64,000 bases of DNA from Parvularcula maris (GTDB taxonomy: Bacteria > Pseudomonadota > Alphaproteobacteria > Caulobacterales > Parvularculaceae). The notes below the pieces were generated by a model that did no database searches, was not told the DNA's origin, and was given only the letters and a program-made list of their open reading frames with translations. The stretch spans positions 1 to 64,000 of the forward strand of contig NZ_JANIBC010000003.1 in assembly GCF_024505085.1 (NCBI RefSeq). The letters run 5' to 3'. Of the stretch, positions 26,439-46,105 are shown piece by piece. The first letter of the stretch is position 1. The number at the start of each line of letters is the position of its first letter. A program made the position numbers and the translations under genes.

Positions 26439-27314
26439 ATGGTTGTGATCATCGGCATCGTCTTCACCCTCCTCGCAGTCTTCGGCGGCTATGTCTGGGC
26501 CGGCGGCAGCATGGACGTCATCGTCGCAGCGCTCCCCTTCGAGATGCTGATCATCGGCGGCTCGGCCTTCGGCGCCTTCGTCGCCTCGAACTCGGTCAGC
26601 GTCATCAAGCACACGGGCAGCGACCTCATGGCGATGATCAAGGGTCCGCGCTTCAAGAAGTCGGACTACCAGGACCTTCTCTGCCTCCTGCACCGGCTGG
26701 TGGAGATCGGCTCGAAAGACCCCTCGGCCCTAGAGAACGAGATCGAGAACCCGGCGGAGTCGGCGCTCTTTTCTCAGTACCCGCGCATTCAGAAGGACAA
26801 GGCCACGGTCGAGATCATCTGCGACACGATGCGCTCGATGATCATGAACTTCGACAACGCCTTCCAGGTCGAGGAGATGCTAGAGAAGCAGCTTCATCAG
26901 ATGAAGGAGGACAGCCTGCACGGCGCCCATGCCCTCAGCCGGGTGGCAGACGCGCTGCCCGCCCTCGGCATCGTCGCCGCCGTGCTCGGCGTCATCAAGA
27001 CCATGGCGTCCATCGACCGGCCGCCGGAGGTCCTGGGCGGCATGATCGCCTCGGCCCTGGTCGGTACGTTCCTCGGCGTCTTCCTCGCCTACGGCATGAT
27101 GGCTCCCATCGCCGAGAAGGTGAAGCAGATCCGCGAGGAGGAGCAGAGCTTCTACGGACTGATCCGCGAGGTGTTGGTCCACTGGCTGCACAGCCACCCG
27201 CCGGTCCTCTGCGTCGAGGTTGGGCGCCGCAACGCCCCCTCCAAGATGCGACCCAGCTTCGCCGACCTCGAAGAGGCCATCCGCGGGTCCAAGGCCGAGA
27301 AGGAAGCCGCCTGA
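26439..27314 (+). CDS. motA: Flagellar motor stator protein MotA
   Basis: 291 residues with the four-helix MotA plan: FTLLAVFGGYVWAGG, ALPFEMLIIGGSAFGAFVAS, then after a cytoplasmic domain ALPALGIVAAVLGVIKTMA and MIASALVGTFLGVFLAYGMMAP. The Pro residues of helices 3-4 and the charged cytoplasmic loop that contacts the rotor are present. With MotB it forms the proton-driven stator. It leads the motA-flgF-flgG-flgA-flgH unit and overlaps flgF (TGATG), whereas motB lies about 13 kb away. Confidence 0.95.
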   Translation: MVVIIGIVFTLLAVFGGYVWAGGSMDVIVAALPFEMLIIGGSAFGAFVASNSVSVIKHTGSDLMAMIKGPRFKKSDYQDLLCLLHRLVEIGSKDPSALENEIENPAESALFSQYPRIQKDKATVEIICDTMRSMIMNFDNAFQVEEMLEKQLHQMKEDSLHGAHALSRVADALPALGIVAAVLGVIKTMASIDRPPEVLGGMIASALVGTFLGVFLAYGMMAPIAEKVKQIREEEQSFYGLIREVLVHWLHSHPPVLCVEVGRRNAPSKMRPSFADLEEAIRGSKAEKEAA

Positions 27315-31495: not shown

Positions 31496-31520
31496 GGGGA
31501 AAGAAATAGTTCGGAAACCT

Positions 31521-31875: not shown

Positions 31876-31890
31876 TTAAGCACTGCAACC
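31876..31890 (+). promoter_or_regulatory. Weak CtrA-like half site upstream of flagellin
   Basis: CTTAAGCACTGCAACC contains a TTAA half and a CAACC half like the motA and flgB sites but with two bases less spacing. Followed by an 89-base leader up to the flagellin start, long enough for FlbT action on the mRNA. Confidence 0.25.
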
Positions 31891-31979
31891 TAAGGAGGAG
31901 AGGCAACCGGATGTTGCGGAGGCTGGCGGGACCCGAGGAAGGGGAACCCGCGCCGGCTCTTCAAAGGAGGAAAGACGAG

Positions 31980-33227
31980 ATGTCTTCCATCAACTTCAAC
32001 CAGAGCGCCCAGGTCGCTCTCATGACCCTCAACAAGGTGAACACGGACCTGTTCAAGATCCAGGACCAGATCTCCACCGGCAAGAGGGTCGCGACCGCCC
32101 GCGACAACGCTGCCGTTTGGGCCATCAGTGCCGTGATGGAGTCCGACGTGATGGGCTTCCGCCAGATTACCGACAGCCTCAATCTCGGCCTCTCCACCGT
32201 GGAAGTCGGCCGGGCAGCGTCCGAGCAGGTGACCAACCTCCTCAAGGAGATCAAGGCCGAGATCGTCTCCGCCAAGGAGCAGAACGTCGACCGCAAGGCC
32301 ATCCAGCGCGACATCGCGGCGCTGCGTGACCAGGTCGGCTCGATCGTTGACGCGGCGCAGTTCAACGGCCTGAACCTTCTCAAGGGCGGGGCCGATGTCG
32401 AGGTTCTCTCGTCCCTCGACCGTGACGCTTCCGGCACTGTCAGCACGGCGAGCATCGCCGTGAAGCGGGCCGACTTCCGCCAGGTCGAAGGCACGTTCGG
32501 CACCACCGCTGTGGCTGCCAACGCCGTTGGTGACACCACCATCTCCGCCGGTACCATCGCGGCTGCCGGAACGGAAACCCTCACGATCGAAGCCGGCACG
32601 CTGGGTACGAACATTCAGGCCGGCTACAGCTTCGACATGACCATCGGTTCCGAAACCGTTGAGTACATCGCGCGCGAAGGCGACACGGTGAACGACGTCG
32701 CCGAGAAGCTGGTCGAGGCCGCCGAGAAGCGCTTCGCCGAGATGGAGGCCGTCTCGCCAGGCTCCGCACCGGACGTCGACTTCACCGTCACGTTGGGTAC
32801 GGATCCAGAGACCCAGGACGCGGTCATCTCCGTCACCAACAATGGCGGCGCGGGTGTGGCCTTCACCTCGGATAGCTTCTCCGACGGCGTATCGGGCGGT
32901 GATCTTGGCCGCCTGGTCGGCATCGACGTCGACACCACCGACGAGACCGCCATCAACCAGGCTCTCCTGGATGTCGAGGACATGATCCAGACCGTCATCG
33001 ACGCCACCGCATCCTTCGGTTCGGTGCAGAACCGCATCGACATCCAGAACAACTTCGTCACCTCGCTGATCGGCTCCCTCGAAGCCGGTGTGGCAGGCCT
33101 GACGGACGCCAATCTGGAGGAAGCTTCCGCTCAACTGCAGGCCCTGCAGGTGCAGCAGCAGCTCAACATCCAGGCGCTCTCGATTGCCAACTCGGCACCG
33201 AGCGCCCTCCTGGCTCTCTTCCGTTAA
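31980..33227 (+). CDS. Flagellin
   Basis: 415 residues. Conserved ends are intact: N-terminal MTLNKVNTDLFKIQDQISTG and DNAAVWAISAVMESD, C-terminal GSVQNRIDIQNNFVTSLIGS and the final QQQLNIQALSIANSAPSALL. The middle (about 160-310) is a Thr/Val/Gly-rich variable domain exposed on the filament. Start MSSINFNQS follows AAAGGAGG. The flaF and flbT genes follow after a terminator. It is the only flagellin gene in the window. Confidence 0.95.
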   Translation: MSSINFNQSAQVALMTLNKVNTDLFKIQDQISTGKRVATARDNAAVWAISAVMESDVMGFRQITDSLNLGLSTVEVGRAASEQVTNLLKEIKAEIVSAKEQNVDRKAIQRDIAALRDQVGSIVDAAQFNGLNLLKGGADVEVLSSLDRDASGTVSTASIAVKRADFRQVEGTFGTTAVAANAVGDTTISAGTIAAAGTETLTIEAGTLGTNIQAGYSFDMTIGSETVEYIAREGDTVNDVAEKLVEAAEKRFAEMEAVSPGSAPDVDFTVTLGTDPETQDAVISVTNNGGAGVAFTSDSFSDGVSGGDLGRLVGIDVDTTDETAINQALLDVEDMIQTVIDATASFGSVQNRIDIQNNFVTSLIGSLEAGVAGLTDANLEEASAQLQALQVQQQLNIQALSIANSAPSALLALFR

Positions 33228-33238
33228 GGAGAGCCGGA

Positions 33239-33273
33239 GGCCAGCCGGGAGTCCGTCCCCGGCTGGCCTTTCT
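33239..33273 (+). terminator. Intrinsic terminator of the flagellin gene
   Basis: Perfect 11-base stem GGCCAGCCGGG/CCCGGCTGGCC, 8-base loop, then TTTCT, 11 bases after the flagellin stop. Confidence 0.9.
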
Positions 33274-33308
33274 ACGTAGACGGATCATAGCGGGAAGGGA
33301 CGACCGGC

Positions 33309-33677
33309 GTGCAGTATCAAGGCTATCAGTCAGTACAAAAAGAAACCAGCGGAGGGGGCAGGAACCTCGAGCGCGAAGTCTTGGAGCGCATCACCATGCG
33401 TCTACGCGGTGCGAGGGAGAATGCCGGGGCGGGCGGCGCGAGGCGGCGCGAAGCCCTCGATGACAACCGCAAGCTCTGGCTGACCTTCGCCTCGGACCTC
33501 GCCAATCCGCAGAACAACTGCCCGGACGATGTCAAGGCGGCGCTCATCTCCATCGCAGCCTATGTCGAGAAGAACACGGGCGCGGCAATTCGCGACAACG
33601 AGGTGCTGGCAGGTTTCGTCGAAATCAATTCGAACATCATCGCCGGCCTCGGCCAAGCAAGCCGGGAAGCGGCCTAA
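33309..33677 (+). CDS. flaF: Flagellar biosynthesis regulator FlaF
   Basis: 122 residues matching FlaF: AREN-type linker, then ALDDNRKLWLTFASDLANPQN, LPDDVKAALISIAAYVE-like segment and FVEINSNIIAGL. FlaF acts with FlbT to couple flagellin translation and secretion in Alphaproteobacteria. The start is GTG; the stop overlaps flbT (TAATG). Confidence 0.93.
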   Translation: MQYQGYQSVQKETSGGGRNLEREVLERITMRLRGARENAGAGGARRREALDDNRKLWLTFASDLANPQNNCPDDVKAALISIAAYVEKNTGAAIRDNEVLAGFVEINSNIIAGLGQASREAA

Positions 33678-34099
33678 TGGCGGGCCTGATCCTCAACCTT
33701 CGCCCCTGGGAGACTTTCCTGGTGGGCGAGCACGTCCTGCAGAACGGGCCGAAGAAGACGCAGCTCCGCGTACCCGATGAGGGCGCCAAGGTGCTGCGCC
33801 AGTCCGATGCGCTGCACCCGGACCAGGTCTCGACCCCGGTGACCCGCGCCTACTACACCGCACAACTTCTGGTTTTAGGCCTGACCGAGGAAGGGCCGGG
33901 GAAGGGGGCGCTCTGCCACCTGCTGCGCCAGCTCAAAGAGGCGCTGGGGGAGAGGGCGGAAGCCGCAGCGGCCCTTACCCTGGCGCTCGAAGGCCGGTAC
34001 TACCTCGTCCTTCGCCAGCTCAAGAAGCTGCTGCCCGAGGAGGCGCTGCTCCTCTCCGCCCAGCACCACCAGCGCGAGCAACTGGCAAGGGCCTGTTAA
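33677..34099 (+). CDS. flbT: Flagellar biosynthesis repressor FlbT
   Basis: 140 residues. N-terminal LILNLRPWETFLVGEHVLQNG is diagnostic; TPVTRAYYTAQLLVL and GRYYLVLRQLKKLLPEEALLL are the helical core. In Caulobacter FlbT binds the flagellin mRNA leader and promotes its decay. Coupled to flaF by a one-base overlap. Confidence 0.93.
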   Translation: MAGLILNLRPWETFLVGEHVLQNGPKKTQLRVPDEGAKVLRQSDALHPDQVSTPVTRAYYTAQLLVLGLTEEGPGKGALCHLLRQLKEALGERAEAAAALTLALEGRYYLVLRQLKKLLPEEALLLSAQHHQREQLARAC

Positions 34100-34112
34100 G
34101 ACCCTAGTAACC
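34096..34112 (+). promoter_or_regulatory. CtrA-like site upstream of flgB
   Basis: TTAA-N7-GTAACC starts within the flbT stop codon, about 45 bases before flgB. It closely parallels the motA site, including a shared CTAG between the halves and AACCAnnGG after them. Confidence 0.5.
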
Positions 34113-34156
34113 ACAGGTTGTATATCTTCCTTTCCGAAGCCTGAACGGAGTTTCGG

Positions 34157-34468
34157 ATGGAAGCACCAGTATCGACCCTCAAGCTGACGAGCGCGCTGGC
34201 GCGGCACGCGGCCCACGCTCATGCGGCGGTGACGAGCAACCTCGCCCGCGCCGATCTTCCGGGTGCCGAGCGGCTCGCCGTCCAGTCCTTTGAGGACATG
34301 GTCCGGCGCGGCGGCGAGGCGCCTCGCAGCTTCGCCGTGCCCGAGGTCATTTCCACCGAGACGGAGATGCTGTCCCTCGCTCGTGCGGGTGCGGACCATC
34401 AGGCTTCCCTGACGCTGTGGAAGTCCACCCTCAACATGCTGCGGGTCGCAGCGGCGGGGCCGCGCTGA
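34157..34468 (+). CDS. flgB: Flagellar basal-body rod protein FlgB (short, divergent)
   Basis: 103 residues, shorter than the usual 120-140. The rod motif normally NIANADTPGY is NLARADLPGA here, and the C-terminal ADHQASLTLWKSTLNMLRVA matches the FlgB end. It forms the innermost rod with FlgC and FliE. GGAG precedes the ATG; its stop overlaps flgC (TGATG), which supports the identification. Confidence 0.85.
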   Translation: MEAPVSTLKLTSALARHAAHAHAAVTSNLARADLPGAERLAVQSFEDMVRRGGEAPRSFAVPEVISTETEMLSLARAGADHQASLTLWKSTLNMLRVAAAGPR

Positions 34469-34854
34469 TGGCCGGTGTCGATCCCATCCAGGGTGCCATG
34501 GGCGCGGCGAGTTCCGGCATGAAGCTCGAGAGCCACCGCCTCAGGCTGTCCGCCGAGAACCTCTCCAATGTCGACACCCCCGGCTACCAGCGCAAGCTGA
34601 TGTTCGCCCGCGAGATGGCGGGCGGCGGGGCGGAGGTCGCGCGTACCGGCCTTTCGCCGAAGGAGGGGAGGGAGCACTACGACCCCTACCATCCGCTAGC
34701 TGACGAGCGGGGCATGGTACGCCTTTCCAATGTCGATCTGATGGTCGAGCTTGCCGATGCCCGCGAGGCACGGCGCAGCTTCGACGCCAATGTCCAGGCC
34801 TTCAAGCAAGCCCAGAGCTTCTACCGCGGCCTTCTCGATCTTCTTCAACGCTAG
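34468..34854 (+). CDS. flgC: Flagellar basal-body rod protein FlgC
   Basis: 128 residues with GMKLESHRLRLSAENLSNVD and TPGYQRKLMFARE, HPLADERGMVRLSNVDLMVEL and ARRSFDANVQAFKQAQSFYR. These are canonical FlgC segments. Start fixed by overlap with flgB; 12 bases separate it from fliE. Confidence 0.94.
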   Translation: MAGVDPIQGAMGAASSGMKLESHRLRLSAENLSNVDTPGYQRKLMFAREMAGGGAEVARTGLSPKEGREHYDPYHPLADERGMVRLSNVDLMVELADAREARRSFDANVQAFKQAQSFYRGLLDLLQR

Positions 34855-34866
34855 GGAGCAGAAGCG

Positions 34867-35133
34867 ATGAACATCTCCGATATCAGCGCCGCCAGCGGCT
34901 ACGGCCAGATGAGGGGCCTCCAGGCAGGGGGCGGCCTCAAAGGCCTCGCCGACAGCTTCGGCGCCATCTTCGACAAGGCCGACGACGCGGCCAAAGCCTT
35001 CGCCGCGAAGAAGCTCGATACCCAATCCGTGGTCGAAGCGTTCAGCCAGGCCGAGCTCGCCCTCCAGACGGCGGTGACGGTACGCGACCGGGTGGTCTCC
35101 GCCTATCAAGAAATCCTCCGGATGCCAATGTGA
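34867..35133 (+). CDS. fliE: Flagellar hook-basal body protein FliE
   Basis: 88 residues. The C-terminal part DTQSVVEAFSQAELALQTAV and RDRVVSAYQEILRMPM is the FliE signature that links MS ring and rod. Preceded by GGAGCAGAAGCG. Its stop overlaps the fliQ start. Confidence 0.92.
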   Translation: MNISDISAASGYGQMRGLQAGGGLKGLADSFGAIFDKADDAAKAFAAKKLDTQSVVEAFSQAELALQTAVTVRDRVVSAYQEILRMPM

Positions 35134-35390
35134 CGGAAGCCGACATCCTTCAGCTTCTGCGCGAGGCCTTGAGGATCGGCATGGTCATGGTGGCGCCGAT
35201 CCTGGTCTCCGCACTGATGGCGGGCCTTATCATCGGCCTGGTCCAGGCGCTGACCTCGATCCAGGAGCTGACGCTGACCTTCGTGCCGAAGCTCGTGGTC
35301 ATCGTGCTGATCTTCTGGATGACGGCTGGGTTCATGGTGACGATGCTGGTGGGGTTCTTCGAGCGGGAAGTGCTGGCGCTGTTCTCGTAG
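35130..35390 (+). CDS. fliQ: Flagellar export gate protein FliQ
   Basis: 86 residues, two helices: MVMVAPILVSALMAGLIIGL and KLVVIVLIFWMTAGFMVTML, with VQALTSIQELTLTFVPK between, all standard for FliQ. Start is GTG overlapping the fliE stop. The TAG stop codon is the first three bases of the perfect palindrome that follows. Confidence 0.95.
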   Translation: MTEADILQLLREALRIGMVMVAPILVSALMAGLIIGLVQALTSIQELTLTFVPKLVVIVLIFWMTAGFMVTMLVGFFEREVLALFS

Positions 35391-35460
35391 GGCGGAACGC
35401 GAAGCTTTCCGCCGAGCAATGGGTGCGTGATAGCGGCGGAAAGCTTCGCGTTCCGCCCTA
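35388..35460. repeat. Perfect 27-base inverted repeat between fliQ and flhA
   Basis: Arms 35388-35414 and 35434-35460 are exact reverse complements (outer end TAGGGCGGAACGCGAAGC) around a 19-base loop. The first arm supplies the fliQ stop. There is no T-run, so it is not a typical terminator. It ends 16 bases before the flhA start. Confidence 0.92.
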
Positions 35461-35475
35461 CAAATGGGGCAGGGT

Positions 35476-37509
35476 ATGGAACAACTCACGAAACTGAAAA
35501 TCAGCCCCACCGTGGCGCTGTCCTTGGGGCTTGTGGCAATTCTCATCATGATGGTGCTGCCCGTGCCGCCCATCGTCCTGGACCTCGGGCTGACGGCAAG
35601 CTTCGCCTTCGCCATCCTCATCTTCGTCACGACACTGTTCGTCGAGCGCCCGCTCGACTTCTCGAGCTTTCCGGCGATCCTCCTCGTCTCGCTTCTTCTG
35701 CGGCTGGCGCTGAACATCTCCTCGACCAAGCTGATCATCGGTGAGGGGCATACCGGGACCGCAGCCGCCGGAGGGGTGATCGAGGGCTTCGCCATGTTCA
35801 TCATGGGGGGGAACATCGCGATCGGTCTGATCGTGTTCTCCGTCCTTGTGCTGGTGAATTTCCTTGTCATCACCAAGGGCGCGGGAAGGATGGCCGAGGT
35901 GGGCGCCCGCTTCGCCCTTGACGCCATGCCAGGCAAGCAGCTCGCCATCGATGCCGACGTCGCGGCAGGCGCCATCACCCACGAAGAAGCCAAGATCCTT
36001 CGCCAGAAAGAGCAGCAGGAGACGGCGTTTCTCGGCTCCCTCGACGGTGTGTCGAAATTCGTCAAAGGCGACGCGGTGGCGGGGCTCCTCATCACCATCC
36101 TCAACCTCGTCGCCGGCATCGTGGTGGGCATGCTGGTGCACAAGGTCAGCTTCGGCCAGGCCATCGAGAACTACTCCGTCCTCACCGTAGGCGACGGCCT
36201 CGTCAGCCAGATCCCCGCCGTGGTCATCTCGGTGGCCGCAGCGCTTCTTCTCTCAAAGGGCCGCGGCGAGGAGGCAGTGGACCTCGCCCTCCTGCGCGAG
36301 CTTGGAGGCAGGCCCGAGGCGCTCGTCACCGTGGCCTGTGTCATGGTCGCCTTCGCGCTTTTTCCGGGCTTGCCCTTTCTACCCTTCGTGTTCGGAGCAG
36401 GGCTCTTGGGCTACCTCGCCTGGCGTCAGTACAAGGCAGGCCCTGCGCCTACGGATGACAAACCCACGGAGACGCATACCAAACCCGAGACCAATCTCGG
36501 CGACCTTCTCGATGTGGACGAGATTCATGTGGAGCTTGCGCCGGACCTAGTCTCCTCGGTGGTCTCCGACCGCGACGGCTTCGATGCGCGGGTGGAGAAG
36601 ATCCGCGGCTTCATCGCCCAGGAGTACGGCTTCATCCTGCCGCCGGTGCGCGTCACCGACCGCTCGACCCTTCCGGCGCAGGGCTACGAGATCAAGGTGC
36701 AGGGAGTGCGCGCGGCCAAGGGCGAGCTGCGCCCTGGACGGTGGCTGGCGCTGCTCCCCCACGAGCAGGAGGCTCACATTCCCGGCGAGCAGGCCACAGA
36801 GCCTGTCTACGGTGCCGCCGCCCGCTGGGTGGACTTTCCGGGCAAGGAGCAGATGATCGTAGCGGGCGTCACCGTGGTCGAGCCTTCGGAGGTCATGGCC
36901 ACCCACCTGCTCGAGACCGTGCAGGCGCAGTTCGCCCGGCTCGTCACCCGCAAATCCCTCCGCGCCGTACTCGATGCGTACACGAACGTCACCGATCCCG
37001 ACCGCGCCGCCTCCAACCGCCGCTTCATCGAGGAGATGATCCCGGAGAAGGTCACGCACGACCTCCTGCAGGGCGTCATCCGCGACCTCCTGGCCGAGCG
37101 GGTTTCGATCCGCCAGCTCCCCCTTATCATCGAGGCGGCGGCGGAGGCCAAGGCCGCCGACCTCATGCCCGGCGACATCGCCGAGCATGTCAGGCGCCGC
37201 ATCGCCTTCACCTTTGTCGGCAAGCTGGCAGGGGAGACGGGCGAGCTGCCCACTATCGCGCTGGGGCCTGAGCTGACCAAACGCCTCTCCGGTGAAGAGA
37301 AGGACCGCGCAGAGAGCGATGCCGCGGGGGCCATCCGCCGTCTGATCGACCGGGCGGCGGAGGCGGGGGCCTACCCGGTGGTGGCGGTCCACGCCACCCT
37401 GCGCCGGACGGTCAGGGGCCTCCTCGCAGCCCAGGGCATCCGCAACCCGGTGCTCTCCATCGACGAGATCCAGGGCCACGCCAGGCCCAAGCTCCTCGGC
37501 ACGGCATGA
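35476..37509 (+). CDS. flhA: Flagellar export protein FlhA
   Basis: 677 residues. The N-terminal half has about eight helices with the FHIPEP region (RFALDAMPGKQLAIDADVAAG and GDAVAGLLITILNLVAGIVV), the C-terminal half is the cytoplasmic ring (LVTRKSLRAVLDAYTN, MIPEKVTHDLLQGVIRDLL). It is the export gate ring using proton motive force. The start at MEQLTKLK follows GGGG; an ATG at 35464 is the alternative. Overlaps fliR by ATGA. Confidence 0.97.
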   Translation: MEQLTKLKISPTVALSLGLVAILIMMVLPVPPIVLDLGLTASFAFAILIFVTTLFVERPLDFSSFPAILLVSLLLRLALNISSTKLIIGEGHTGTAAAGGVIEGFAMFIMGGNIAIGLIVFSVLVLVNFLVITKGAGRMAEVGARFALDAMPGKQLAIDADVAAGAITHEEAKILRQKEQQETAFLGSLDGVSKFVKGDAVAGLLITILNLVAGIVVGMLVHKVSFGQAIENYSVLTVGDGLVSQIPAVVISVAAALLLSKGRGEEAVDLALLRELGGRPEALVTVACVMVAFALFPGLPFLPFVFGAGLLGYLAWRQYKAGPAPTDDKPTETHTKPETNLGDLLDVDEIHVELAPDLVSSVVSDRDGFDARVEKIRGFIAQEYGFILPPVRVTDRSTLPAQGYEIKVQGVRAAKGELRPGRWLALLPHEQEAHIPGEQATEPVYGAAARWVDFPGKEQMIVAGVTVVEPSEVMATHLLETVQAQFARLVTRKSLRAVLDAYTNVTDPDRAASNRRFIEEMIPEKVTHDLLQGVIRDLLAERVSIRQLPLIIEAAAEAKAADLMPGDIAEHVRRRIAFTFVGKLAGETGELPTIALGPELTKRLSGEEKDRAESDAAGAIRRLIDRAAEAGAYPVVAVHATLRRTVRGLLAAQGIRNPVLSIDEIQGHARPKLLGTA

Positions 37510-38264
37510 CCGGGATGTTGACCGGGCTCGGCCTTCTCGCCGAGGCATTGGGCGCGAACCTCGAGACCATGCTGGCGCTCTTCTGTAGGCTAGGGGGCTT
37601 CATCGCGCTCCTCCCCGGCCTCGGCGCGCAGACCCTGCCGGTGCGGGTCAAGCTCTCCCTTGGCCTGGCGCTGACGGCGCTGCTCCTGCCACTGACCACG
37701 CCGACGCCGGAAGGCGAGCTGATACCCCTCGTTCTGACCGAGGCGTTCCAGGGCCTCTTTCTAGGCTTTGGCATCCGCGTCTTCGTCTTCGCGCTCGGCG
37801 TCACCGGCTCGGTCATCGCCCAGGCCCTCTCGCTTAGCCAGCTCTTCGGCGTCAGCGCCGAGGGCGACAGCAGCGGCGCGGTCTCCAACGCGCTGGTCAT
37901 GGCGGCGGTGACGATGTTCCTCACCGCCGACCTCGAAGTGGTGGCGCTGGCTAGGTTCGTCGAGCACCTCGCCGTGGTTCCTTTGGGCTACGGTTTCGAG
38001 GCAGACAGCGCGGCTATGGCCGAGCGGGCGCTGGACCTCACCGCCGAGGCCTTCGCCTTGGGCGTGATGCTGGCCGCGCCCTTCATGGTGCTGAACTTCG
38101 CCTTCTATATCCTCCTCGGCCTTCTCAACCGGGCCATGCCGCAGCTCATGGTCACTTTTGTAGGCCTCCCCGGCATCACCCTTGGAGGCCTCGTCCTCCT
38201 CATGCTGACGGCCGGCGCGCTTTTGACGGCATGGGCCGCGAAGATGGGAGGCATCCTCTCGTGA
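37506..38264 (+). CDS. fliR: Flagellar export gate protein FliR
   Basis: 252 residues, six hydrophobic segments, with FCRLGGFIALLPGLGAQTLPV, SLSQLFGVSAEGDSSGAVSN and FVGLPGITLGGLVLLML as FliR landmarks. Part of the FliPQR gate, though fliP is not in this window. Overlaps flhA (ATGA) and flhB (GTGA). Confidence 0.95.
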   Translation: MTGMLTGLGLLAEALGANLETMLALFCRLGGFIALLPGLGAQTLPVRVKLSLGLALTALLLPLTTPTPEGELIPLVLTEAFQGLFLGFGIRVFVFALGVTGSVIAQALSLSQLFGVSAEGDSSGAVSNALVMAAVTMFLTADLEVVALARFVEHLAVVPLGYGFEADSAAMAERALDLTAEAFALGVMLAAPFMVLNFAFYILLGLLNRAMPQLMVTFVGLPGITLGGLVLLMLTAGALLTAWAAKMGGILS

Positions 38265-39322
38265 GCGACGCAGCCGATAAGGTCGTCGAGGCCTCCCCGG
38301 ACAAGAAAGCCCGCGCGAAGAAGAAAGGGGATGTGGAGAGCTCCCAGGAGCTCGTGACCGCGGCAGCGCTTCTTGGCCTCCTCCTTGGCCTTTTCGCCAG
38401 CGTGCCCTTTGCCCAATCGCTGGCTAGCGAGCTGAAGATCCTCCTCCTCAGGCCCGAGGGGGCAGGGGCGGCGGTCCTCTTCGAGGGGCTAGGCTGGCGC
38501 TTCATCAGGGCGGGGCTCTTCTTCGTCCTGCCCCTCGCCGTCTTCCCGGCGGCAGCCACCCTCATCGCCCTGGCGGTGCAGGACGCTATCGTCTTCGCGC
38601 CGCAGAGGATCGCGCCCAAGCTGGACAAGGTCTCCCCGATCAAGGGCGCGGGCAAGAAGTTCGGCCCCCAGGCGCTCCTCGAGTTCGTCAAGTCGATGGT
38701 CAAGGTCGTCGCTCTCAGCAGTGTCGGGGTGACCGCGCTGGTCTTTGAGGCAGGCCGGATCAGCCGCGCCTTCGCGGCCCCGCCGATAGCGCTGCCGCAG
38801 CTTCTCTTAAGAGAGCTTCTCGTCATGCTGGCCATCGGCGTGGCGATCACCGGGGCGGCGGCGCTCATCGACCTGCCCCTCGTCCGTGCACAGCGCGAGA
38901 AGCGCCTGAAGATGTCCCGTCAGGAGGCCGCCGACGAGCAGAAGGAGCAGGAGGGTGATGCGGGCCTCAAGGCGCAGCGCCGCAAGAGGGCGGAGGCCAT
39001 CGCGCTTCACCAGATGATGCAGGAGATCAAGACGGCGGATGTGGTGATGACCAACCCCACCCACTACGCCGTGGCCCTCAAATGGGACCGCACCGGCGGC
39101 GAGCTCCCTCGCTGCGTGGCCAAGGGGGTGGACGAGATTGCCCTGCGCCTTCGCAGTGCCGCCTTCGACGCGGGCGTTCCGATCAAGGAGGACCCGCCCG
39201 CGGCTCGCGCGCTCTACGCCAGCGTGGAGATGGGCGACCCGGTGAAGCCCGAGCACTTCCAGGCGGTGGCCGCCGCCATCCGCTTCGCCGACCGGATGCG
39301 GGCGCTTAGGCGGAAGGGGTAG
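38261..39322 (+). CDS. flhB: Flagellar export switch protein FlhB
   Basis: 353 residues. N-terminal charged stretch KKARAKKKGDVESSQELVTA, four helices, then the cytoplasmic domain with the self-cleavage site NPTH at residues 265-268 (MTNPTHYAVALKWDR) and KEDPPAARALYASVEMGDPV. It changes export specificity from rod/hook to filament in response to FliK. GTG start overlaps the fliR stop. Confidence 0.96.
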   Translation: MSDAADKVVEASPDKKARAKKKGDVESSQELVTAAALLGLLLGLFASVPFAQSLASELKILLLRPEGAGAAVLFEGLGWRFIRAGLFFVLPLAVFPAAATLIALAVQDAIVFAPQRIAPKLDKVSPIKGAGKKFGPQALLEFVKSMVKVVALSSVGVTALVFEAGRISRAFAAPPIALPQLLLRELLVMLAIGVAITGAAALIDLPLVRAQREKRLKMSRQEAADEQKEQEGDAGLKAQRRKRAEAIALHQMMQEIKTADVVMTNPTHYAVALKWDRTGGELPRCVAKGVDEIALRLRSAAFDAGVPIKEDPPAARALYASVEMGDPVKPEHFQAVAAAIRFADRMRALRRKG

Positions 39323-39333
39323 GGAAGAGGCTT

Positions 39334-39465
39334 ATCTCTCCCTCCGGGAGAGATCGACATCTGCGATGTCGAGTGAGGGCGAGTAGGGGTACTGAGCTTG
39401 GTCTCGGGAATGCCCTCACCCGAAGCCTGCCGAGGCAGCCTTCGACCTCTCCCATTGGGAGAGGT
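39334..39465. repeat. Composite intergenic repeat with two CCTCTCCC hairpins, copy B
   Basis: Hairpins ATCTCTCCC/GGGAGAGAT (39334-39354) and ACCTCTCCCA/TGGGAGAGGT (39445-39465) flank a linker ending in GCCCTCACCCGAAGCCTGCC...GCAGCCTTCGACCTCTCCC, similar to the linker end of 20284-20427. Confidence 0.78.
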
Positions 39466-39494
39466 AAGCCGCTGATCGGATACTGAATGAAAGT

Positions 39495-40340
39495 CTAACC
39501 CGTCAGTTCACCAACGGTGAAGCTGCGCCGCTGGAAGCGTGAGGCGACGCTGCCGCGCGCCACCTTCTTCGTCACGCCGCCCGTCTCTACCTCAAGGTCC
39601 ACCTGCCCGGCATCGGCACCGGGCAGGGCCAGCTCCACTCCTACCTCCAGCTCGCGCAGCATTCGCCCATCACTGGTCCAGCGGCAGAGCGTGACATGGG
39701 CGGGAAGGGGCAGGGCATGCGGCCCGAGACCGCCGGGTACCTGGCTTCCCCAGGCCTCCAGTAGAGCCTCGCCGAGGGGCGGGAAGAGGAGGTCGAAGAC
39801 GGCTTCCTTCCCTTCGATCCGTAGGGTGAAGGTGCCCAGCAGACGCTCGCCAGCGGGCGGCAGGTTCAGTGGCCACTCCTCTAGAATGGGAAGCGAACGG
39901 TTCGGCTCGAGCTCCAGCTCGAACCCCTCGCGCAGGACCTCGGCCAAGGGCTCGGCAATGGTAACCATGGACATGCTGTCGAGCACGGAAGGATGCATCG
40001 GCGGGGAAAGTCCCTCGCTGTCGCCAAGCAGGTAGCTCGTCAGAAGAAGCGCCGCCTCGGGCGGGAAGCGCAGCACGGCCGCGCCGTCCGGCTCGCCAAC
40101 AGGCACCAGAAGCCCCGGCTGCGGCAGCTCGCGCCGATAGGCATTGTGGCTGGTCATCCGGAAGCTGACCTCCGCCTCCACCGGCCGGGAGACGAGGCGG
40201 GAGAGCCGCCCGCCGAGCTGGTCGGTCAGCGCTTTCCAGCGGTGCATCTCTTCGGAAACGGCAGCGGGGACGGGCAGGATCTCGTCCTGGGCGGGGTCGG
40301 TTCTGACGAAAGCGGTCAGGGGGAGCGTGTTCATCGGCAT
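39495..40340 (-). CDS. Divergent FliM-like protein with SpoA-like C-terminus
   Basis: 281 residues. No family match is obvious at first sight. Residues about 30-180 have the spacing of a FliM middle domain (LTDQLGGRLSRLVSRPVEAE, ...RFPPEAALLLTSYLLGDSE), and residues about 225-280 read as a SpoA/FliN-type barrel (LRELEVGVELALPGADAGQ...GSVASRFQRRSFTV). The N-terminus contains DPAQDEIL, faintly like the CheY-binding SQDEID of FliM. I infer a flagellar C-ring component. It is divergent from motB with a CtrA-like site between them. Start could also be the second Met (40334). Confidence 0.55.
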   Translation of the reverse strand: MPMNTLPLTAFVRTDPAQDEILPVPAAVSEEMHRWKALTDQLGGRLSRLVSRPVEAEVSFRMTSHNAYRRELPQPGLLVPVGEPDGAAVLRFPPEAALLLTSYLLGDSEGLSPPMHPSVLDSMSMVTIAEPLAEVLREGFELELEPNRSLPILEEWPLNLPPAGERLLGTFTLRIEGKEAVFDLLFPPLGEALLEAWGSQVPGGLGPHALPLPAHVTLCRWTSDGRMLRELEVGVELALPGADAGQVDLEVETGGVTKKVARGSVASRFQRRSFTVGELTG

Positions 40341-40363
40341 GGGGACAACACAACCGGAGAGCG

Positions 40364-40379
40364 TTAAATTACGCTTTAC
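40364..40379. promoter_or_regulatory. CtrA-like site between fliM-like gene and motB
   Basis: TTAA-N7-TTTAC in the 101-base divergent interval, the copy closest to the TTAA-N7-TTAAC consensus after flgE. Confidence 0.45.
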
Positions 40380-40441
40380 GGACCTTTGCTAGACGCAACC
40401 CCAGGCTGTGCGCCGTGGGGGCGCCCTAAGGGGGTAGAGCG

Positions 40442-41209
40442 GTGGAAGACCAACCGATCATCAAGCGGAAGAAGATCGTCCAGGGCGACGGTCACCATGG
40501 CGGCGCGTGGAAGGTGGCGTATGCGGACTTCGTCACCTCCATGATGGCGTTCTTCATGCTGCTATGGATCCTCAACGTGACCACCGAGTCGCAGAAGGAG
40601 GGCCTCGCGGACTTCTTCGACCCCTCCATCCCGGTCAGCGCCAACAGCTCGGGCGGCGACGACCTCCTGTTCGGCGACGGGCTGAGCGGCGACGCCCATC
40701 TGGCCTCCGACGGCAAGACCATCCTGCAGGGCCCCGCCCTCTCCGACGAGGAGCTGGCGAGGAAGCTCGCCACCTCGCTGGACCGCGTGGCGGGGGAGGG
40801 CGCCACCAAGATCACGCTGAGCCCCGAGGGGCTACGCATCGAGCTTCTGGACACGGCGGAGCAGCCCATCTTCCGCCTGGGCGAGGCGGGGCGGACCAAG
40901 CGCCTCGAGGAGATCATCGCCGTGGCGGCGCCCGTGCTGCGCGAGAGTGGCAGGCGCATCAAGGTCTCGGGCCACACCGACAGCATGCAGTTCGCGGGGC
41001 GCGCCTACACCAATTGGGAGCTCTCCGTGGACCGAGCGAACATGGCCAGAAGGCTCGCCGTCGAGAACGGCGTCCCCGAGGGGGCGTTCTACGAGGTGAC
41101 GGGCCACGCCGACAAACTGCCCGCCGCCGAAAATAGTGCGTCCCCGGAGAACCGCCGCATTGCCTTCCACCTTCTCAATCCGGAGACGATGCCGTTAACG
41201 GCGCGCTAA
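40442..41209 (+). CDS. motB: Flagellar motor stator protein MotB
   Basis: 255 residues. Single helix WKVAYADFVTSMMAFFMLLW with the proton-carrying Asp29, then a plug/linker and a C-terminal OmpA-like peptidoglycan-binding domain (about 135-250) with VSGHTDSMQFAGRAYTNWEL and ENRRIAFHLL. It anchors the MotA/B stator to the cell wall. Start codon is GTG. Only a DNA-level promoter element, overlapping its last codons, separates it from flgE. Confidence 0.95.
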   Translation: MEDQPIIKRKKIVQGDGHHGGAWKVAYADFVTSMMAFFMLLWILNVTTESQKEGLADFFDPSIPVSANSSGGDDLLFGDGLSGDAHLASDGKTILQGPALSDEELARKLATSLDRVAGEGATKITLSPEGLRIELLDTAEQPIFRLGEAGRTKRLEEIIAVAAPVLRESGRRIKVSGHTDSMQFAGRAYTNWELSVDRANMARRLAVENGVPEGAFYEVTGHADKLPAAENSASPENRRIAFHLLNPETMPLTAR

Positions 41210-41211
41210 CC
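41195..41211 (+). promoter_or_regulatory. CtrA-like site upstream of flgE
   Basis: TTAA-N7-CTAACC overlapping the motB stop, 46 bases before flgE. Both halves keep the TAA core, making it the best of the set. Confidence 0.5.
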
Positions 41212-41256
41212 CTAAGTCACTACAACTTGAGGTAGAGACTTAGGAGCGTGCTTACA

Positions 41257-42567
41257 ATGACGATCTCTTCCTCCCTCAATGCCGGGGTCATGGGCCTCTC
41301 GGTCAACGCGACGAAGCTTGCAACGATCTCGGACAATGTCGCGAACTCGGGCACCATCGGCTACAAGCGCGCCGCCGCCGATTTCGTCAGCATGGTGATC
41401 GCTGAGACTCCCGCCGCCTACTCCGCTGGCGGCGTGCGGGTGGAGACGGTGCGTCTCGCCGGTGAGCAGGGCGCTCTCTTCGCGACCGGTTCCTCGACCG
41501 ACCTCGCCATTGCAGGGCGCGGCTTCCTGCCGGTCACCCAAAGCTACGACGTAGGCGACCAGGCAGGCGACCGTCCGCTGCTCCTGACCTCCACCGGCTC
41601 GTTCCGCGCCGATGACAAGGGCTTCCTTGTCACCCCTGGCGGCGCGGCGCTCCTAGGCTGGCCGGTCACGGCGGACGGCACGGTGGGTGATGTGACCCGC
41701 CGCTCGGCCTCGGACCTCGTGCCGATCAACATCAACACCTCCGAGCTCGCCGCCGAGCCGACCACCGATGTTCGCCTCGGCATCAACCTGCCCGCGGCAG
41801 CCACCGAGGCGGGGGGCAGCGGCGACCCCTATACGCTTCCCATCGAGGCCTTCGACAATCTAGGCCGCATCCAGACCATCGACGCGGTCTTCACCCCCCA
41901 ACTGCCCGCCGCCGGTGCGTCCAACCGCTGGACCATGGAGCTGATCGACAACAGCCAGGTTCCGCCCGCCAGCATCGGCACGTTGGACATCGAGTTCAGC
42001 AATCTGAACCCCGGCGGCGGCACCATCGCCAATGTCACGGCGGGCGGCGGCGCCGCCTACGACCCGCTGACAGGCGAAGTGGATGTGAGCTGGCTCGATG
42101 TGGGCAACGACCTCACCATCGACATCGGCGCGATCGGCGAAGCCGGCGCGATCTCTCAGTTCTCGGAAGTGTTCAGACCCATCAACGTGGTCCGCAACGG
42201 CGCGCCTGCCGGTGATTTCAGCCGGGTGGAGGTCGATGAGACCGGCCGCATGGAGGCCATCTACGAGACCGGCTTCCGCCGCTTCATCTACCAGGTGCCG
42301 GTAGCCGACGTTCCGAACCCCAACGGCCTCAGCGCCGCCGACAACCAGAGCTTCCGCGTCAGCCAGGAGTCCGGTGACTTCTACCTGCACGACGCTGGCG
42401 ATGGAGCGGTGGGGGGCATTGCGGGCTTCGCTTTGGCTGAATCGACCACCGATCTAGGCACCGAGCTGACCGATCTCATCCGTACCCAGCGCGCCTATGC
42501 GTCGAACGCCAGCGTCATCCGCTCGGTCGACGAGATGCTGCAGGAAACCACCAACATCCTTCGCTGA
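41257..42567 (+). CDS. flgE: Flagellar hook protein FlgE
   Basis: 436 residues. N-terminal LSVNATKLATISDNVANSGT and IGYKRAAADF, FlgE-core DLAIAGRGFLPV and the C-terminal ELTDLIRTQRAYASNASVIR. The central region (about 130-330) is the Ala/Gly/Thr-rich hook surface domain. Start ATG chosen with AGGAG ten bases upstream; GTG at 41248 is an alternative. Heads the flgE-flgK-flgL-flgI unit. Confidence 0.95.
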   Translation: MTISSSLNAGVMGLSVNATKLATISDNVANSGTIGYKRAAADFVSMVIAETPAAYSAGGVRVETVRLAGEQGALFATGSSTDLAIAGRGFLPVTQSYDVGDQAGDRPLLLTSTGSFRADDKGFLVTPGGAALLGWPVTADGTVGDVTRRSASDLVPININTSELAAEPTTDVRLGINLPAAATEAGGSGDPYTLPIEAFDNLGRIQTIDAVFTPQLPAAGASNRWTMELIDNSQVPPASIGTLDIEFSNLNPGGGTIANVTAGGGAAYDPLTGEVDVSWLDVGNDLTIDIGAIGEAGAISQFSEVFRPINVVRNGAPAGDFSRVEVDETGRMEAIYETGFRRFIYQVPVADVPNPNGLSAADNQSFRVSQESGDFYLHDAGDGAVGGIAGFALAESTTDLGTELTDLIRTQRAYASNASVIRSVDEMLQETTNILR

Positions 42568-42617
42568 TCCCTAGGCTGACCGAAGCGTCCGAACCACGCC
42601 TCTGAGGAGGGGCCGCC

Positions 42618-44015
42618 ATGAGCTTTTCGACCATCATGACCAACGCGCTGGCGGGGATGAACGCCTCGTCAGTACGCGCTGAGGTCCTGTCCTACAACAT
42701 CGCCAATGCCGAGACGGAGGGCTATGCGAGGCGCCAGGCGCGCTTTGAGCCCTCCAGCCCCGGCGCGGTGCAGCTCACCGCCATCCAGCGCGCCGACGCA
42801 GGGGTTGCGAGACGGGAGCTTCTCGGCGCGGAAACCGAAAGCGCCGGTGCCCGCATCAGAAGCCAGGCACTCGCGGCGATGAACCAGGCGCTGGGCGATG
42901 CGGACGACCCCAACGCTCTTTACGCAGTCTATGCCCGCTTCGAGACTGCGCTCGCCGACCTCCGCCTCACCCCCGAGAGCGGCGCGATGCAGCTTGCTTT
43001 CCTCAGGGCGGGGCAAGACCTGACCGAGAGCTTCGCCCAGCTCGAGGGCAGCATCCAGGACATCCGCGAGACCGCCGAGGCGGAGATCGCCCGCGACGTC
43101 CTTCGGGCCAACGAGGTCCTGCGCGAGCTGCAGGGCCTCAACGCCGAGGCCGTGCAGCCTCGCGGGCCGGGCCTCGAGGACATCTCCGAGCGTCAGTCGC
43201 GTCTTCTCACCGAGCTGTCCCAGCTTCTCGACGTGGAAGTCCAAGGCGAGACGGGTGAGGAGATCCGTATCAGGACGGGCGGCGGTTTTCTGCTGCTTGG
43301 CGATACGGCGCAAGAGCTCAGCTTCACCCGCTCCGGCGCGCTGTCGGCGGACCTCACCTATGCGGGGGGCTCGCTCTCCGGACTGACCCTTGGCGGCTAC
43401 AACCTCACGCCCGGCAAGCTTCAGGGGCTTCGCGGCGGTAGGATCGCGGCCAACTTCGCCGTGCGCGACAGCCTCGCGACGGATGTCTCCGGCCGCATCG
43501 ACGCCGCCGCTACGGCGCTTGCGGATCGTTTGGGCGCGGACCCCGCTACGGCCGTGATCGTGGTGAATGCAGGGCCGGGCAGCGCCGCCCAGCGCCTGTC
43601 GGTGAACCCGCTGGTCGATCCGGAGCAGGGGGGCGAGCTCTACCGCCTTCGCGACGGCGTGACGGCGGGTGCACCCGGACCGGCCGGGGGGCAGGGGATG
43701 CTCGCCGAGCTCGAAGCGGCGCTCTCTTCACCCCAGCCCCTGCCGATTGCGACGGGCACGCCCTCGCCGCTCACCTACACCGACACGCTGGGAAGCCTCG
43801 CCACCCAGCTCGGCACCATGACCCTTCGCGCCCAGGACGCCTCCCAGGCCGCCGAGCGTAGCCGCCAGTCCTTTGCCGACGAGACCGCGCGCCTCACCGG
43901 CGTCGATACAGACCGGGAGCTTCAGGACCTCCTCCTGGTCGAGCAGTCCTTCGCCGCCAATGCGCGGGTCGTTCAGGCAGCGGACGAGATGCTGCAGCGC
44001 CTTCTGGAGATCTAA
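42618..44015 (+). CDS. flgK: Flagellar hook-filament junction protein FlgK
   Basis: 465 residues. N-terminal FSTIMTNALAGMNASSVRAE and LSYNIANAETEGYARRQ; helical D1 region to about 200; C-terminal LQDLLLVEQSFAANARVVQA and ADEMLQRLLEI, as in FlgK. It is the first hook-associated protein. GAGGAGGGG precedes the ATG; three bases separate it from flgL. Confidence 0.95.
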   Translation: MSFSTIMTNALAGMNASSVRAEVLSYNIANAETEGYARRQARFEPSSPGAVQLTAIQRADAGVARRELLGAETESAGARIRSQALAAMNQALGDADDPNALYAVYARFETALADLRLTPESGAMQLAFLRAGQDLTESFAQLEGSIQDIRETAEAEIARDVLRANEVLRELQGLNAEAVQPRGPGLEDISERQSRLLTELSQLLDVEVQGETGEEIRIRTGGGFLLLGDTAQELSFTRSGALSADLTYAGGSLSGLTLGGYNLTPGKLQGLRGGRIAANFAVRDSLATDVSGRIDAAATALADRLGADPATAVIVVNAGPGSAAQRLSVNPLVDPEQGGELYRLRDGVTAGAPGPAGGQGMLAELEAALSSPQPLPIATGTPSPLTYTDTLGSLATQLGTMTLRAQDASQAAERSRQSFADETARLTGVDTDRELQDLLLVEQSFAANARVVQAADEMLQRLLEI

Positions 44016-44018
44016 GCC

Positions 44019-45011
44019 ATGTACCTGACCTCACCCAACGTCACCCACTACGCTCAGTTCTCGCGCGGTATTGCGGGCCTGAGGGCGCAGCTCGACCGCA
44101 GTTCGCTGGAGATGGTCACCGGACGGACCAGCGACCCGCTACGGGCCGTCCGCGGTGACCAGGAGACGATCCTCCGCTCCCAGAGTGCCCTGGACCAGGC
44201 CGAGGCGGACAGCGCTCGCCTCAAAGTGCTCGGCGGACGCTACCAAGTGGCCGCCACCACATTGCGGAGCGTGGCCGAGCTCGGCCAGAGCGTCATCGGT
44301 GCGGCGCTCGCCGCCGCCGACGGCAGCTCAGGCATCGACGCGGAGCGCTTCGCCCAGGCCCAAGCGCGGACCTCCATCGGCTCCGTTCTCGGCGCCCTCG
44401 AAGCCCGCTTTGGAGGCAGGGCGCTCTTCGGCGGGGCGCTGGGCAGCGGTCAGGTGACCCAAGGGTTCGCCGCTCTCCAGACCGAGCTCGACACGGCGCT
44501 CACCGGCGCGGTGTCAGCGGCAGACGTCCGCACGGCGATCGAGGGTGTCTTCGCGGATGGCGGCGCCTATGAGACCAACATCTATCTCGGCGAAGGTCAG
44601 GCGGCGGACAGCCAGCTCGCCCACGGCAAGCCCCTGGGCAGCCTGCCTTCGGCCAGCGCCGCGCCGATCCGCCAGATGCTCAGCGGCATGAGCATGGTAC
44701 TTCGCACGGACCAGGTGCCCACGGCGGAGCGCGAGGCTTTCCTTCAGGAGGCCGCCGAGCTGATGCAGGCTGCCCTCGAGAATATCATCGCGGAGGAGGC
44801 CTCGGTCGGGCTCTCTATCCAGTCCATCACCCGCGAGGAGACGGCGCTCGAGCGCCGCCTTTTCGATGCGGAATCGAGCCTGGAAGCCGTGCTGGGCCGC
44901 GATCCCTTCGAAGCCGCCAGCGAAACCCAGAGCCTAGAGGCCAGGCTTCAGGCCGCCTACACCGTCACGGGCCGCCTCGGCGCCCTCCGGCTGACGAACT
45001 TCCTACGATGA
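44019..45011 (+). CDS. flgL: Flagellar hook-associated protein FlgL
   Basis: 330 residues of the flagellin superfamily. N-terminal THYAQFSRGIAGLRAQLDRS and SLEMVTGRTSDPL, with flagellin-like helical C-terminus (AYTVTGRLGALRLTNFLR). It joins FlgK to the filament. Overlaps flgI by ATGA. Confidence 0.93.
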   Translation: MYLTSPNVTHYAQFSRGIAGLRAQLDRSSLEMVTGRTSDPLRAVRGDQETILRSQSALDQAEADSARLKVLGGRYQVAATTLRSVAELGQSVIGAALAAADGSSGIDAERFAQAQARTSIGSVLGALEARFGGRALFGGALGSGQVTQGFAALQTELDTALTGAVSAADVRTAIEGVFADGGAYETNIYLGEGQAADSQLAHGKPLGSLPSASAAPIRQMLSGMSMVLRTDQVPTAEREAFLQEAAELMQAALENIIAEEASVGLSIQSITREETALERRLFDAESSLEAVLGRDPFEAASETQSLEARLQAAYTVTGRLGALRLTNFLR

Positions 45012-46105
45012 GATGGCTTCTCCTCCTCATCCTCCTGCCGCTTCTCCTCACCGGCGAGGCGGCGGGCCAGGCCGTGCGGCTCAAGGACCTTGTCGACGTC
45101 GAGGGCATGCGCGGCAACGACCTCATCGGCTACGGTATCGTCGTGGGCCTGAACGGCACCGGCGACCGCCTGCGCAACTCCCCCTATACGGAGGAAGCGC
45201 TGGTCAGCCTTCTCGAGCGGCTCGGCGTCAACATACAGGACGACCAGTTCCGACCTGACAACGTCGCCGCCGTCATCGTCACGGCGGAGCTGCCGCCCTT
45301 TGCCAGGGCCGGCAGCCGGATCGACATCTCGGTCAGCTCAATGGGTGATGCCGAGAGCCTCCAGGGCGGGGTTCTCGTCATGACCCCTCTTCTTGGTGCG
45401 GACAATCAGGTTTATGCCGTCGCCCAAGGCCCTCTCACCGTGGGCGGCTTCGAGGCCAGGGGGCAGGCGGGTTCCGCCGTCAAGGGGACGCCGACTCTCG
45501 GCACCATCGCCGGAGGGGCGAGGGTGGAGCGCGAGGTCGCCTTCGCCTTCGGTGATCTGCAGGAGCTGCGCCTCGCTTTGCGCGACCCCGACTTCACCAC
45601 CGCCAAGCGGATCACCGATGCCCTCAACACCCTCTTCGAGCGGGACGTGGCGGAGATGCTCGACGCGGGCACGGTCCTCCTCGACAGCAAGCGGACGAAA
45701 CTGCCCGCGCCCGAAATGATGGCGAGCATCGAAGGCCTGTACCTCACCCCCGCGAGGCGGGCGCGGGTGGTCATCGACCAGCGCTCCGGCACGATCGTCC
45801 TCGGCGAGGATGTCCGCATCGCCCCCGTCGCGGTGGCCCAGGGCTCGCTGACCATTCAAGTGGCCGAGACCCCCGTCGCCTCCCAACCCGGAGCGTTCTC
45901 GCGCGGGCGCAGCGTGGTCCTGCCGCGTACCAGCATCACAGCGGAGGAGGAGGCCGCCGCCGTCGGCACGCTGGCTTCGGGCGCCTCCCTCAAGGACCTG
46001 ATCGAGGGCCTAAACGCCCTCAACGTCCCGCCCCGCGATATGGTGGAAATCTTCGAAGCGCTGAAGGCAGCGGGTGCCCTCCATGCGGAGATCGTGCTAC
46101 AGTAG
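45008..46105 (+). CDS. flgI: Flagellar P-ring protein FlgI
   Basis: 365 residues. Signal peptide LLLLILLPLLLTGEAAGQA, then the FlgI signatures RLKDLVDVEGMRGNDLIGYG, VVGLNGTGD, SSMGDAESLQGGVLVMTPL and the C-terminal LIEGLNALNVPPRDMVEIFE with ALHAEIVLQ. It polymerises around the rod in the peptidoglycan layer, helped by FlgA. Last gene of the flagellar island. Confidence 0.97.
   Translation: MRWLLLLILLPLLLTGEAAGQAVRLKDLVDVEGMRGNDLIGYGIVVGLNGTGDRLRNSPYTEEALVSLLERLGVNIQDDQFRPDNVAAVIVTAELPPFARAGSRIDISVSSMGDAESLQGGVLVMTPLLGADNQVYAVAQGPLTVGGFEARGQAGSAVKGTPTLGTIAGGARVEREVAFAFGDLQELRLALRDPDFTTAKRITDALNTLFERDVAEMLDAGTVLLDSKRTKLPAPEMMASIEGLYLTPARRARVVIDQRSGTIVLGEDVRIAPVAVAQGSLTIQVAETPVASQPGAFSRGRSVVLPRTSITAEEEAAAVGTLASGASLKDLIEGLNALNVPPRDMVEIFEALKAAGALHAEIVLQ

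Follow-up and report, generated by a model that had tools for sequence, protein, structure and literature searches.

FliM counts as one of the conserved core proteins of the flagellar switch. Canonical members (PF02154 plus PF01052; structures 5x0z, 2hp7, 4fhr and 8umd) have a CheC-like middle domain followed by a SpoA domain, occur once per flagellar set along with FliG and FliN, and are encoded next to fliN or fliL. In canonical motors the GGXG loop of FliM meets the EHPQR motif of FliG, a contact that is used in switching models (PMC7355467). According to a further study, the CheY-binding motif EIDAL is present at the N-terminus of "most" FliM sequences, not of all (PMC6946799). The parts of the C-ring can change in a lineage-specific manner. 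In Campylobacter jejuni, with FliM, FliN and FliY in its C-ring, this has happened through duplication of FliN/FliY (PMC6946799). Another point of reference is Fla2, the endogenous flagellar set of Cereibacter (Rhodobacter) sphaeroides. The genes of this alphaproteobacterial set are activated by CtrA, coexist with a second set and include the order fliL-pflI-motE; its fliM and fliG stand apart from the main cluster (PMC10954123, PMC7277832). All of these Fla2 traits have their like in the flagellar genes described here, CtrA activation in the form of CtrA-like boxes.

The window (the whole 64,000-nucleotide stretch of Parvularcula maris DNA that was analysed, on contig C3) contains a gene for a 281-residue protein beside motB. 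A first-pass annotation placed it correctly at 39495-40340, without a strand, which is the minus strand, and proposed that it was either the actual FliM or a novel motor component. The gene, here called P0001, is an unbroken frame from ATG to stop. At the three codon positions its GC content is 0.75/0.48/0.82, much as in flhB, motB and flgE. P0001 converges with flhB (38231-39322, plus) and diverges from motB (40442-41209, plus), with a gap of 101 bp (40341-40441) on the motB side. It stands on its own strand, outside the fliF-fliN-fliP-fliG operon, which counts against its reading as a FliM. The following features belong to P0001 and its upstream region.

39495..40340, minus strand: P0001, probable divergent FliM of set B, 281 aa, stop codon included
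39741..40283, minus strand: FliM middle (CheC-like) domain, residues about 20-200, from fold matches
39498..39704, minus strand: SpoA (FliMN_C) domain, residues about 213-281; the profile alignment reaches the domain end
40011..40031, minus strand: loop LLGDSEG, residues 104-110, aligned by hhalign with LLGGQPG of FliM; GGXG absent
40364..40378, plus strand: CtrA-like box TTAAATTACGCTTTA, between P0001 and motB, one mismatch from the CtrA box

The genome that contains the window (G000) has two flagellar gene sets. Set A is on contig C5 and comprises flhB, fliR, fliQ, fliE, flgC, flgB, fliI, flbT, flaF, flagellin, flgI, flgL, flgK and flgE, together with motB, motA, flgG, flgA, flgH, fliM, fliF, fliH, fliN, fliP, fliG and fliJ. 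These names come from reading the sequences, except that FliM was named by Pfam and FliI by TIGR01026. Set B is split between the window, where it spans 26439-46105 (motA to flgI), and contig C1. Its genes in the window, apart from P0001, include the following.

26439..27314, plus strand: motA (Pfam MotA_N 5.8e-31, MotA_ExbB 4.9e-15)
31911..33227, plus strand: flagellin (Pfam Flagellin_N 7e-27)
33309-33677, plus strand: flaF (Pfam FlaF 2e-26)
33677-34099, plus strand: flbT, by sequence reading
34157-34468: FlgB-like gene, 103 aa, no Pfam match at E<=0.001
34867-35133, plus strand: fliE-like, by sequence reading and gene order in relatives
35130-35390, plus strand: fliQ-like, by sequence reading and gene order in relatives
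35464..37509, plus strand: flhA, named by sequence reading, 73% identical (best segment) to the P. lutaonensis gene
37506..38264, plus strand: fliR, by position and sequence reading
38231..39322, plus strand: flhB (Pfam Bac_export_2 4.2e-88)
40442..41209, plus strand: motB (Pfam MotB_plug 9.5e-17, OmpA 2.9e-10)
41248..46105, plus strand: flgE, flgK, flgL and flgI, by Pfam for flgE and by sequence reading for the others

Since the FlgB-like gene has no Pfam match, other small parts of set B are divergent too. The C1 portion (L016:8351-13362) encodes FliG, FliP, FliN, FliF and FliL, all recognised by Pfam, and two further proteins. FliG exceeds the cut-offs of FliG_N, FliG_M and FliG_C, and FliN is a 91-aa protein with a FliMN_C match of 5e-19. 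The two further proteins are taken for PflI and MotE by their place and sequence; the Pfam matches of one (DUF6468 and two more) stay below cut-off, and the other has none. Near the set-B fliG, two ORFs at L016:4416-6442 have a GC3 of 0.49-0.51, compared with mostly 0.8-0.9 around them, and are likely a recent insertion.

A search of the genome for a second fliM, as the first-pass annotation had advised, found a canonical one on C5, within set A. It is the single PF02154 match of the genome (E 1e-38; L014:4423-5391), and it rules out P0001 as the genome's only FliM. The annotation's remark that the island holds no other switch gene is true of the window, but the FliG, FliN and FliF of set B lie on C1 and a second, canonical set lies on C5. 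No FliM candidate besides P0001 was found for set B when the window genome was searched. P0001 thus occupies a set that has FliF, FliG, FliN, MotA and MotB, and the first of the annotation's two alternatives is the better supported, in the form that P0001 serves as FliM in one of the two sets. We put the probability of this reading at roughly 0.88, mainly on the grounds of profile alignment, fold and gene content of the set.

Alone, P0001 is as hard to recognise as FliM as had been claimed for it. At E<=10 it matches no family in Pfam, NCBIfam or PHROGs and no PDB sequence, the PF02154 model does not match it, and a profile of its seven-sequence family also finds nothing among PDB sequences. 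The earlier description of FliM-like spacing and a SpoA-like tail is confirmed for the family, though not from this single sequence. Pfam FliMN_C matches four of the seven members at E<=0.001, two of them above the curated cut-off (G002, 2.4e-8; G003, 2.7e-6) and two below it (G007, 5e-5; G009, 3.6e-4). The value for the G004 member is 0.091, and P0001 itself and the G001 orthologue have no FliMN_C match in Pfam. A whole-genome PF01052 scan likewise locates a match within the G002 orthologue (9.8e-9) and another within that of G003 (9.6e-7). The HMM-HMM comparison that had been proposed aligns the family profile (7 sequences) with canonical FliM (25 sequences) at E 5.7e-9 over 244 columns, covering the middle and SpoA domains, whereas eight column shuffles and a reversed profile gave E 0.083 to 0.76. 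Of the 26 PF02154 loci of relatives, 25 make up the canonical set here, without the contig-end fragment L042.

The comparison also took in 21 other divergent FliM-like proteins of the Parvularculaceae. The P0001 family aligns with them at E 1.6e-24, and they align with canonical FliM at E 3e-23. P0001 alone reaches E 3.6e-9 against this group, and its alignment with the canonical profile is not significant (probability 1.4%, E 0.038). The 21 proteins are 20 of the 23 loci L078-L100 plus L101; in L084 and L089 the ORF at the locus centre is another gene, and L093 has a fused frame. In a tree of 37 FliMs, which took in nine of the 25 canonical sequences, the seven set-B proteins group together (100/99), separate from the other divergent proteins, and the nine canonical FliMs form another (100/99). 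The finer placement of P0001 is unsure because its end branch is among the longest (1.93).

The predicted fold points the same way. An AlphaFold2 model of P0001 from a two-sequence input is of low confidence (pLDDT 45, pTM 0.43). Its Foldseek matches at ranks 1-16 are FliM chains or, judged by length, FliM chains of C-ring complexes (best 3.0e-8); FliY and CheC come next. VIA-align superposes the model on H. pylori FliM (5x0z_F) with Z 11.2 over 145 residues at 3.3 A. The P. lutaonensis orthologue, modelled as well and again with low confidence (pLDDT 51), has FliM or FliM-sized chains at ranks 1-5 (best 7.6e-4), with FliY right after them; three of its matches pass E 0.001. Structure prediction, which the first-pass annotation had also called for, accordingly returns FliM as the best match of a low-confidence model, with the SpoA part matched weakly. 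That part reaches Z 3.4 to a FliM(SpoA)::FliN fusion, and ribosomal proteins reach Z 3.8. The SpoA domain of HrcQb (Z 2.4) is the sole entry in the fold list from a non-flagellar T3SS (YscQ/HrcQ). By profile and fold, then, the P0001 family has the domain architecture of FliM, and canonical FliMs are its top structural matches. The annotation had named two findings that together would speak against a C-ring protein. One of them, a canonical fliM elsewhere, is indeed present on C5, in a separate set; the other, a missing SpoA fold, is not what was found, as the family has SpoA by sequence and a FliM-type middle by fold, with a weak fold match for the SpoA part of P0001 itself.

What if P0001 is a phosphatase of CheY-P of the FliY/CheC type rather than FliM? 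The fold superfamily with the CheC-like domain is the same, and VIA-align gives Z 9.2 for FliY and 8.1 and 8.0 for CheC-like proteins. FliM entries outrank both in the fold matches, however, and set B already has a FliN and no other FliM was found for it. A phosphatase is therefore barely credible. Nor does P0001 resemble FliN, a short SpoA protein without a CheC-like domain, because about 180 of its residues form such a domain.

As the FliM of set B, P0001 would form the middle wall of the C-ring in this second flagellar system. Its CheC-like middle domain would sit under the set-B FliG and its SpoA domain would join the ring of set-B FliN at the base of the C-ring, so that P0001 would carry torque and switching signals in the set-B motor.

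The place of the gene is conserved. A search with P0001 of 61 genomes (its own and 60 relatives) returned itself and six others at 24-31% identity, all from Parvularcula, of which nine other genomes were searched; the P. lutaonensis orthologue (L110:13856-14713) is 31% identical. Five of the six orthologues lie between motB and flhB, and the G007 copy adjoins flhB at a contig end, which leaves its motB side out of view. The seven-member family profile has matches in 39 of 62 Parvularculaceae genomes. Except for the seven set-B genes themselves and a single G027 match, these are restricted to roughly 55-120 positions at the C-terminal end of longer ORFs. The clearest arrangement is that of the single-contig sister genome G003, where set B forms a single cluster and the orthologue again has motB and flhB as its neighbours. 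It begins with motE-like, pflI-like, fliL, fliF, fliN, fliP, fliG, flgI, flgL, flgK, flgE, motB and the P0001 orthologue, continues with flhB, fliR, flhA, fliQ, fliE, flgC, flgB, flbT, flaF, flagellin and two small ORFs, and ends with fliK, flgD, flgH, flgA, flgG, flgF and motA. A second G003 cluster, set C, follows a similar plan and has its own FliM-like gene beside motB (FliMN_C 4.9e-8). There is thus one FliM-like gene per cluster in this genome. Set C is a third kind of flagellar set and occurs in some Parvularcula genomes, with these divergent FliMs beside motB.

L101:16565-17470: set-C divergent FliM
L106:16543-17430: set-C divergent FliM
L170:2557-3501: set-C divergent FliM
L171:1925-2659: set-C divergent FliM

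These observations bear on whether P0001 is instead an accessory protein derived from FliM, such as a regulator of the stator whose gene adjoins it, with the set-A FliM serving both motors. Such a role would fit a gene on a separate strand beside motB, the loss of GGXG and EIDAL, and the existence of a canonical FliM in the genome. However, G002, G003 and G007 have the orthologue and no PF02154 FliM (though each carries a FliM-like gene of set C besides), and in G003 each flagellar cluster has a single FliM-like gene, in both cases beside motB. In G005, G006 and G008 the sole divergent FliM that was found adjoins motB as well and is divergent from it, an arrangement shared with G003. The set-B FliG, moreover, has diverged from the form that the set-A FliM would bind. 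An accessory protein is accordingly quite unlikely.

P0001, the probable FliM of set B, is a rapidly changing protein. Pairwise identity among the seven set-B FliMs is 17-36% within one genus. Compared with P. lutaonensis (G004), P0001 is about 30% identical and 20 other set-B proteins of the window are 49-87% identical (FliK over 87 of 377 residues, FlhA over 491 of 681, and fliE and fliQ not counted), which makes P0001 the lowest of the 21. The set-A FliM is 81% identical to its P. lutaonensis counterpart. This comparison was confined to window proteins; among the set-B motor parts within the window, FliM is the fastest-evolving. Identities to G003 are 24% for P0001, 26% for the PflI-like protein, 34% for FliL, 37% for FliG, 44% for FliN and 45% for FliF of set B, 68% for MotA and 74% for FlgG. 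The MotE-like protein of set B has no match at all in G003. Fast evolution is thus seen in more than one set-B motor part, in several of them in fact.

Could P0001 simply be a decaying, non-functional gene, with its very low identity the product of relaxed selection? Identity of 17-36% inside a genus and the lowest rank in the window would be expected of such a gene, and set A could supply motility in the window genome. Yet the frame is open in all seven genomes, the seven-row alignment retains 13 invariant positions, and GC3 is coding-like. The gene is also kept in its place, including in genomes that lack set A. A further clue is the CtrA-like box TTAAATTACGCTTTA between P0001 and motB, one mismatch from the CtrA consensus. 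Six boxes with at most one mismatch occur in the 64-kb window where 1.2 are expected, a number reached by one of 100 shuffles, and all six lie in set B, between 30018 and 41209. The form TTAA-N7-TTTA is present in the P0001-motB region of all six genomes examined (G000, G001, G002, G003, G004 and G009), overlapping the annotated motB start in G001; in G007 a contig edge falls there. This conservation supports co-regulation of P0001 and motB and argues against decay, which we regard as very unlikely. A scan of 26001-46200 for the sigma-54 pattern found no match.

A literature search on FliM with MotB, FliN and SpoA in alphaproteobacteria gave no match. The two flagellar sets of C. sphaeroides are said to use different FliMs, a finding attributed to del Campo in 2007. 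Set B has, like the C. jejuni C-ring, undergone lineage-specific change, but through sequence divergence of FliM and FliG rather than by duplication.

It is at the switch motifs that P0001 departs most visibly from canonical FliM, from which it also differs in having no PF02154 match, in its very fast evolution and in its place beside motB. All 25 canonical FliMs have GG in the loop, as do six of the 21 other divergent proteins; the seven set-B FliMs all lack it. Because GGXG is absent, P0001 is taken for a divergent and not a canonical FliM. On the FliG side, EHPQ occurs in 23 distinct genes of 55 aligned (25 of 58 rows, of which three are the same set-A gene and one, L014_3731, is not FliG) and again in none of the seven set-B proteins. 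At this site they have ERPA (G000, G001, G002, G004 and G007), ERPG (G009) or ERAS (G003). These FliGs were assigned to set B by cluster in G003 and by elimination in the six others, where the remaining FliG goes with set A or shares a contig with the set-C FliM; in G000 and G002 neighbouring peroxiredoxin and AhpD-like genes, as in G003, helped. The contact between FliM and FliG may have been rebuilt in set B, because the GGXG loop and the EHPQ motif are both altered there, and their joint change fits such a rebuilding. Shared ancestry accounts for part of it. The FliGs of the set-C loci L101, L106, L170 and L171 are also without EHPQ. As to the row that is not FliG, L014:3731-4426 adjoins the set-A fliM and encodes 231 aa with a sub-cut-off MgtE_N-like match and a weak likeness to FliG_M in the genome scan; it is possibly MotE.

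Another difference lies in the export ATPase. With TIGR01026 (379.5 bits as cut-off), four of ten Parvularcula genomes show a FliI above the cut-off: G000, G001, G004 and G009, exactly those with set A. None is over the cut-off in G002, G003, G005, G006, G007 or G008, of which G003 and G005 are single contigs; their matches, at about 235 bits or less, are taken for F1 and Rho. All six carry flagellar genes with a divergent FliM. Across the 61-genome family sample FliI is over the cut-off in 49 genomes and just under it in G011, and at 1e-75 there is no match in the six Parvularcula and five other genomes, the latter 76-93% complete. Outside Parvularcula, every genome that supplied one of the 17 divergent FliMs has a FliI match (that of G011 just under the cut-off), so divergence of FliM needs no loss of FliI.

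In Salmonella FliH links FliI to FliN (PMC4905995). Gene order shows no fliH between the consecutive fliF, fliN, fliP and fliG of sets B and C (in the G008 listing antisense ORFs hid fliN and fliG), and G027 does have a fliH among these genes. FliI is thus judged by a family model and FliH by gene order; a PF02108 search misses even the set-A FliH. BLASTP with the set-A FliI, FliH and FliJ and two further queries found no match in the window, L016, L101-L108, L165, L168, L170 or L171, a search that did not extend to L166, L167, L169 and L184. Its FliI query works across genera, whereas the set-A FliH query misses the FliH of L109, which makes the FliH part weak.

Parvularcula species are described as motile. 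The passages on Parvularcula in one paper (PMC7179689) say nothing on motility. ATPase-independent flagellar export has been described for Salmonella, in a paper whose accessible text makes no mention of natural ATPase-free cases (PMC4230889), and among the literature matches listed there was no natural flagellum built by proton-motive force alone. In the window genome, the FliI of set A could also serve set B. In the relatives without FliI, the set-B flagellum would be built by proton-motive force alone. Perhaps, then, set B is a naturally ATPase-free flagellum in which FliH and FliI are gone, the C-ring is freed from docking them, a new pairing (FliM without GG, FliG mostly with ERPA) has replaced GGXG/EHPQ in the FliM-FliG contact, and FliM is among the fastest-evolving parts. 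This combined scenario is tentative, and we hold it at somewhat less than even odds.

P0001 by itself would be a modest find; the interest would lie in the system, with its second set, changed switch motifs and FliI-less relatives. If true, a working flagellar set with both motifs changed would show which switch parts are dispensable, and its FliM/FliG pairs would supply natural compensating pairs. The six FliI-less Parvularcula genomes with divergent FliMs offer a test of natural flagellar assembly by proton-motive force only. Family models can miss real FliMs, so such genomes may be misread as switch-less.

A final motif concerns CheY. From reading the N-termini, EIDAL is absent from P0001 and also from the canonical FliM of set A. 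Genes with a CheW domain are present in seven of the ten Parvularcula genomes, including the window genome. At the place of EIDAL, the divergent FliMs of L080, L082, L087, L090, L098, L099 and L100 have a short basic N-terminal motif of the type VLRRKI, which could be an alternative docking motif.
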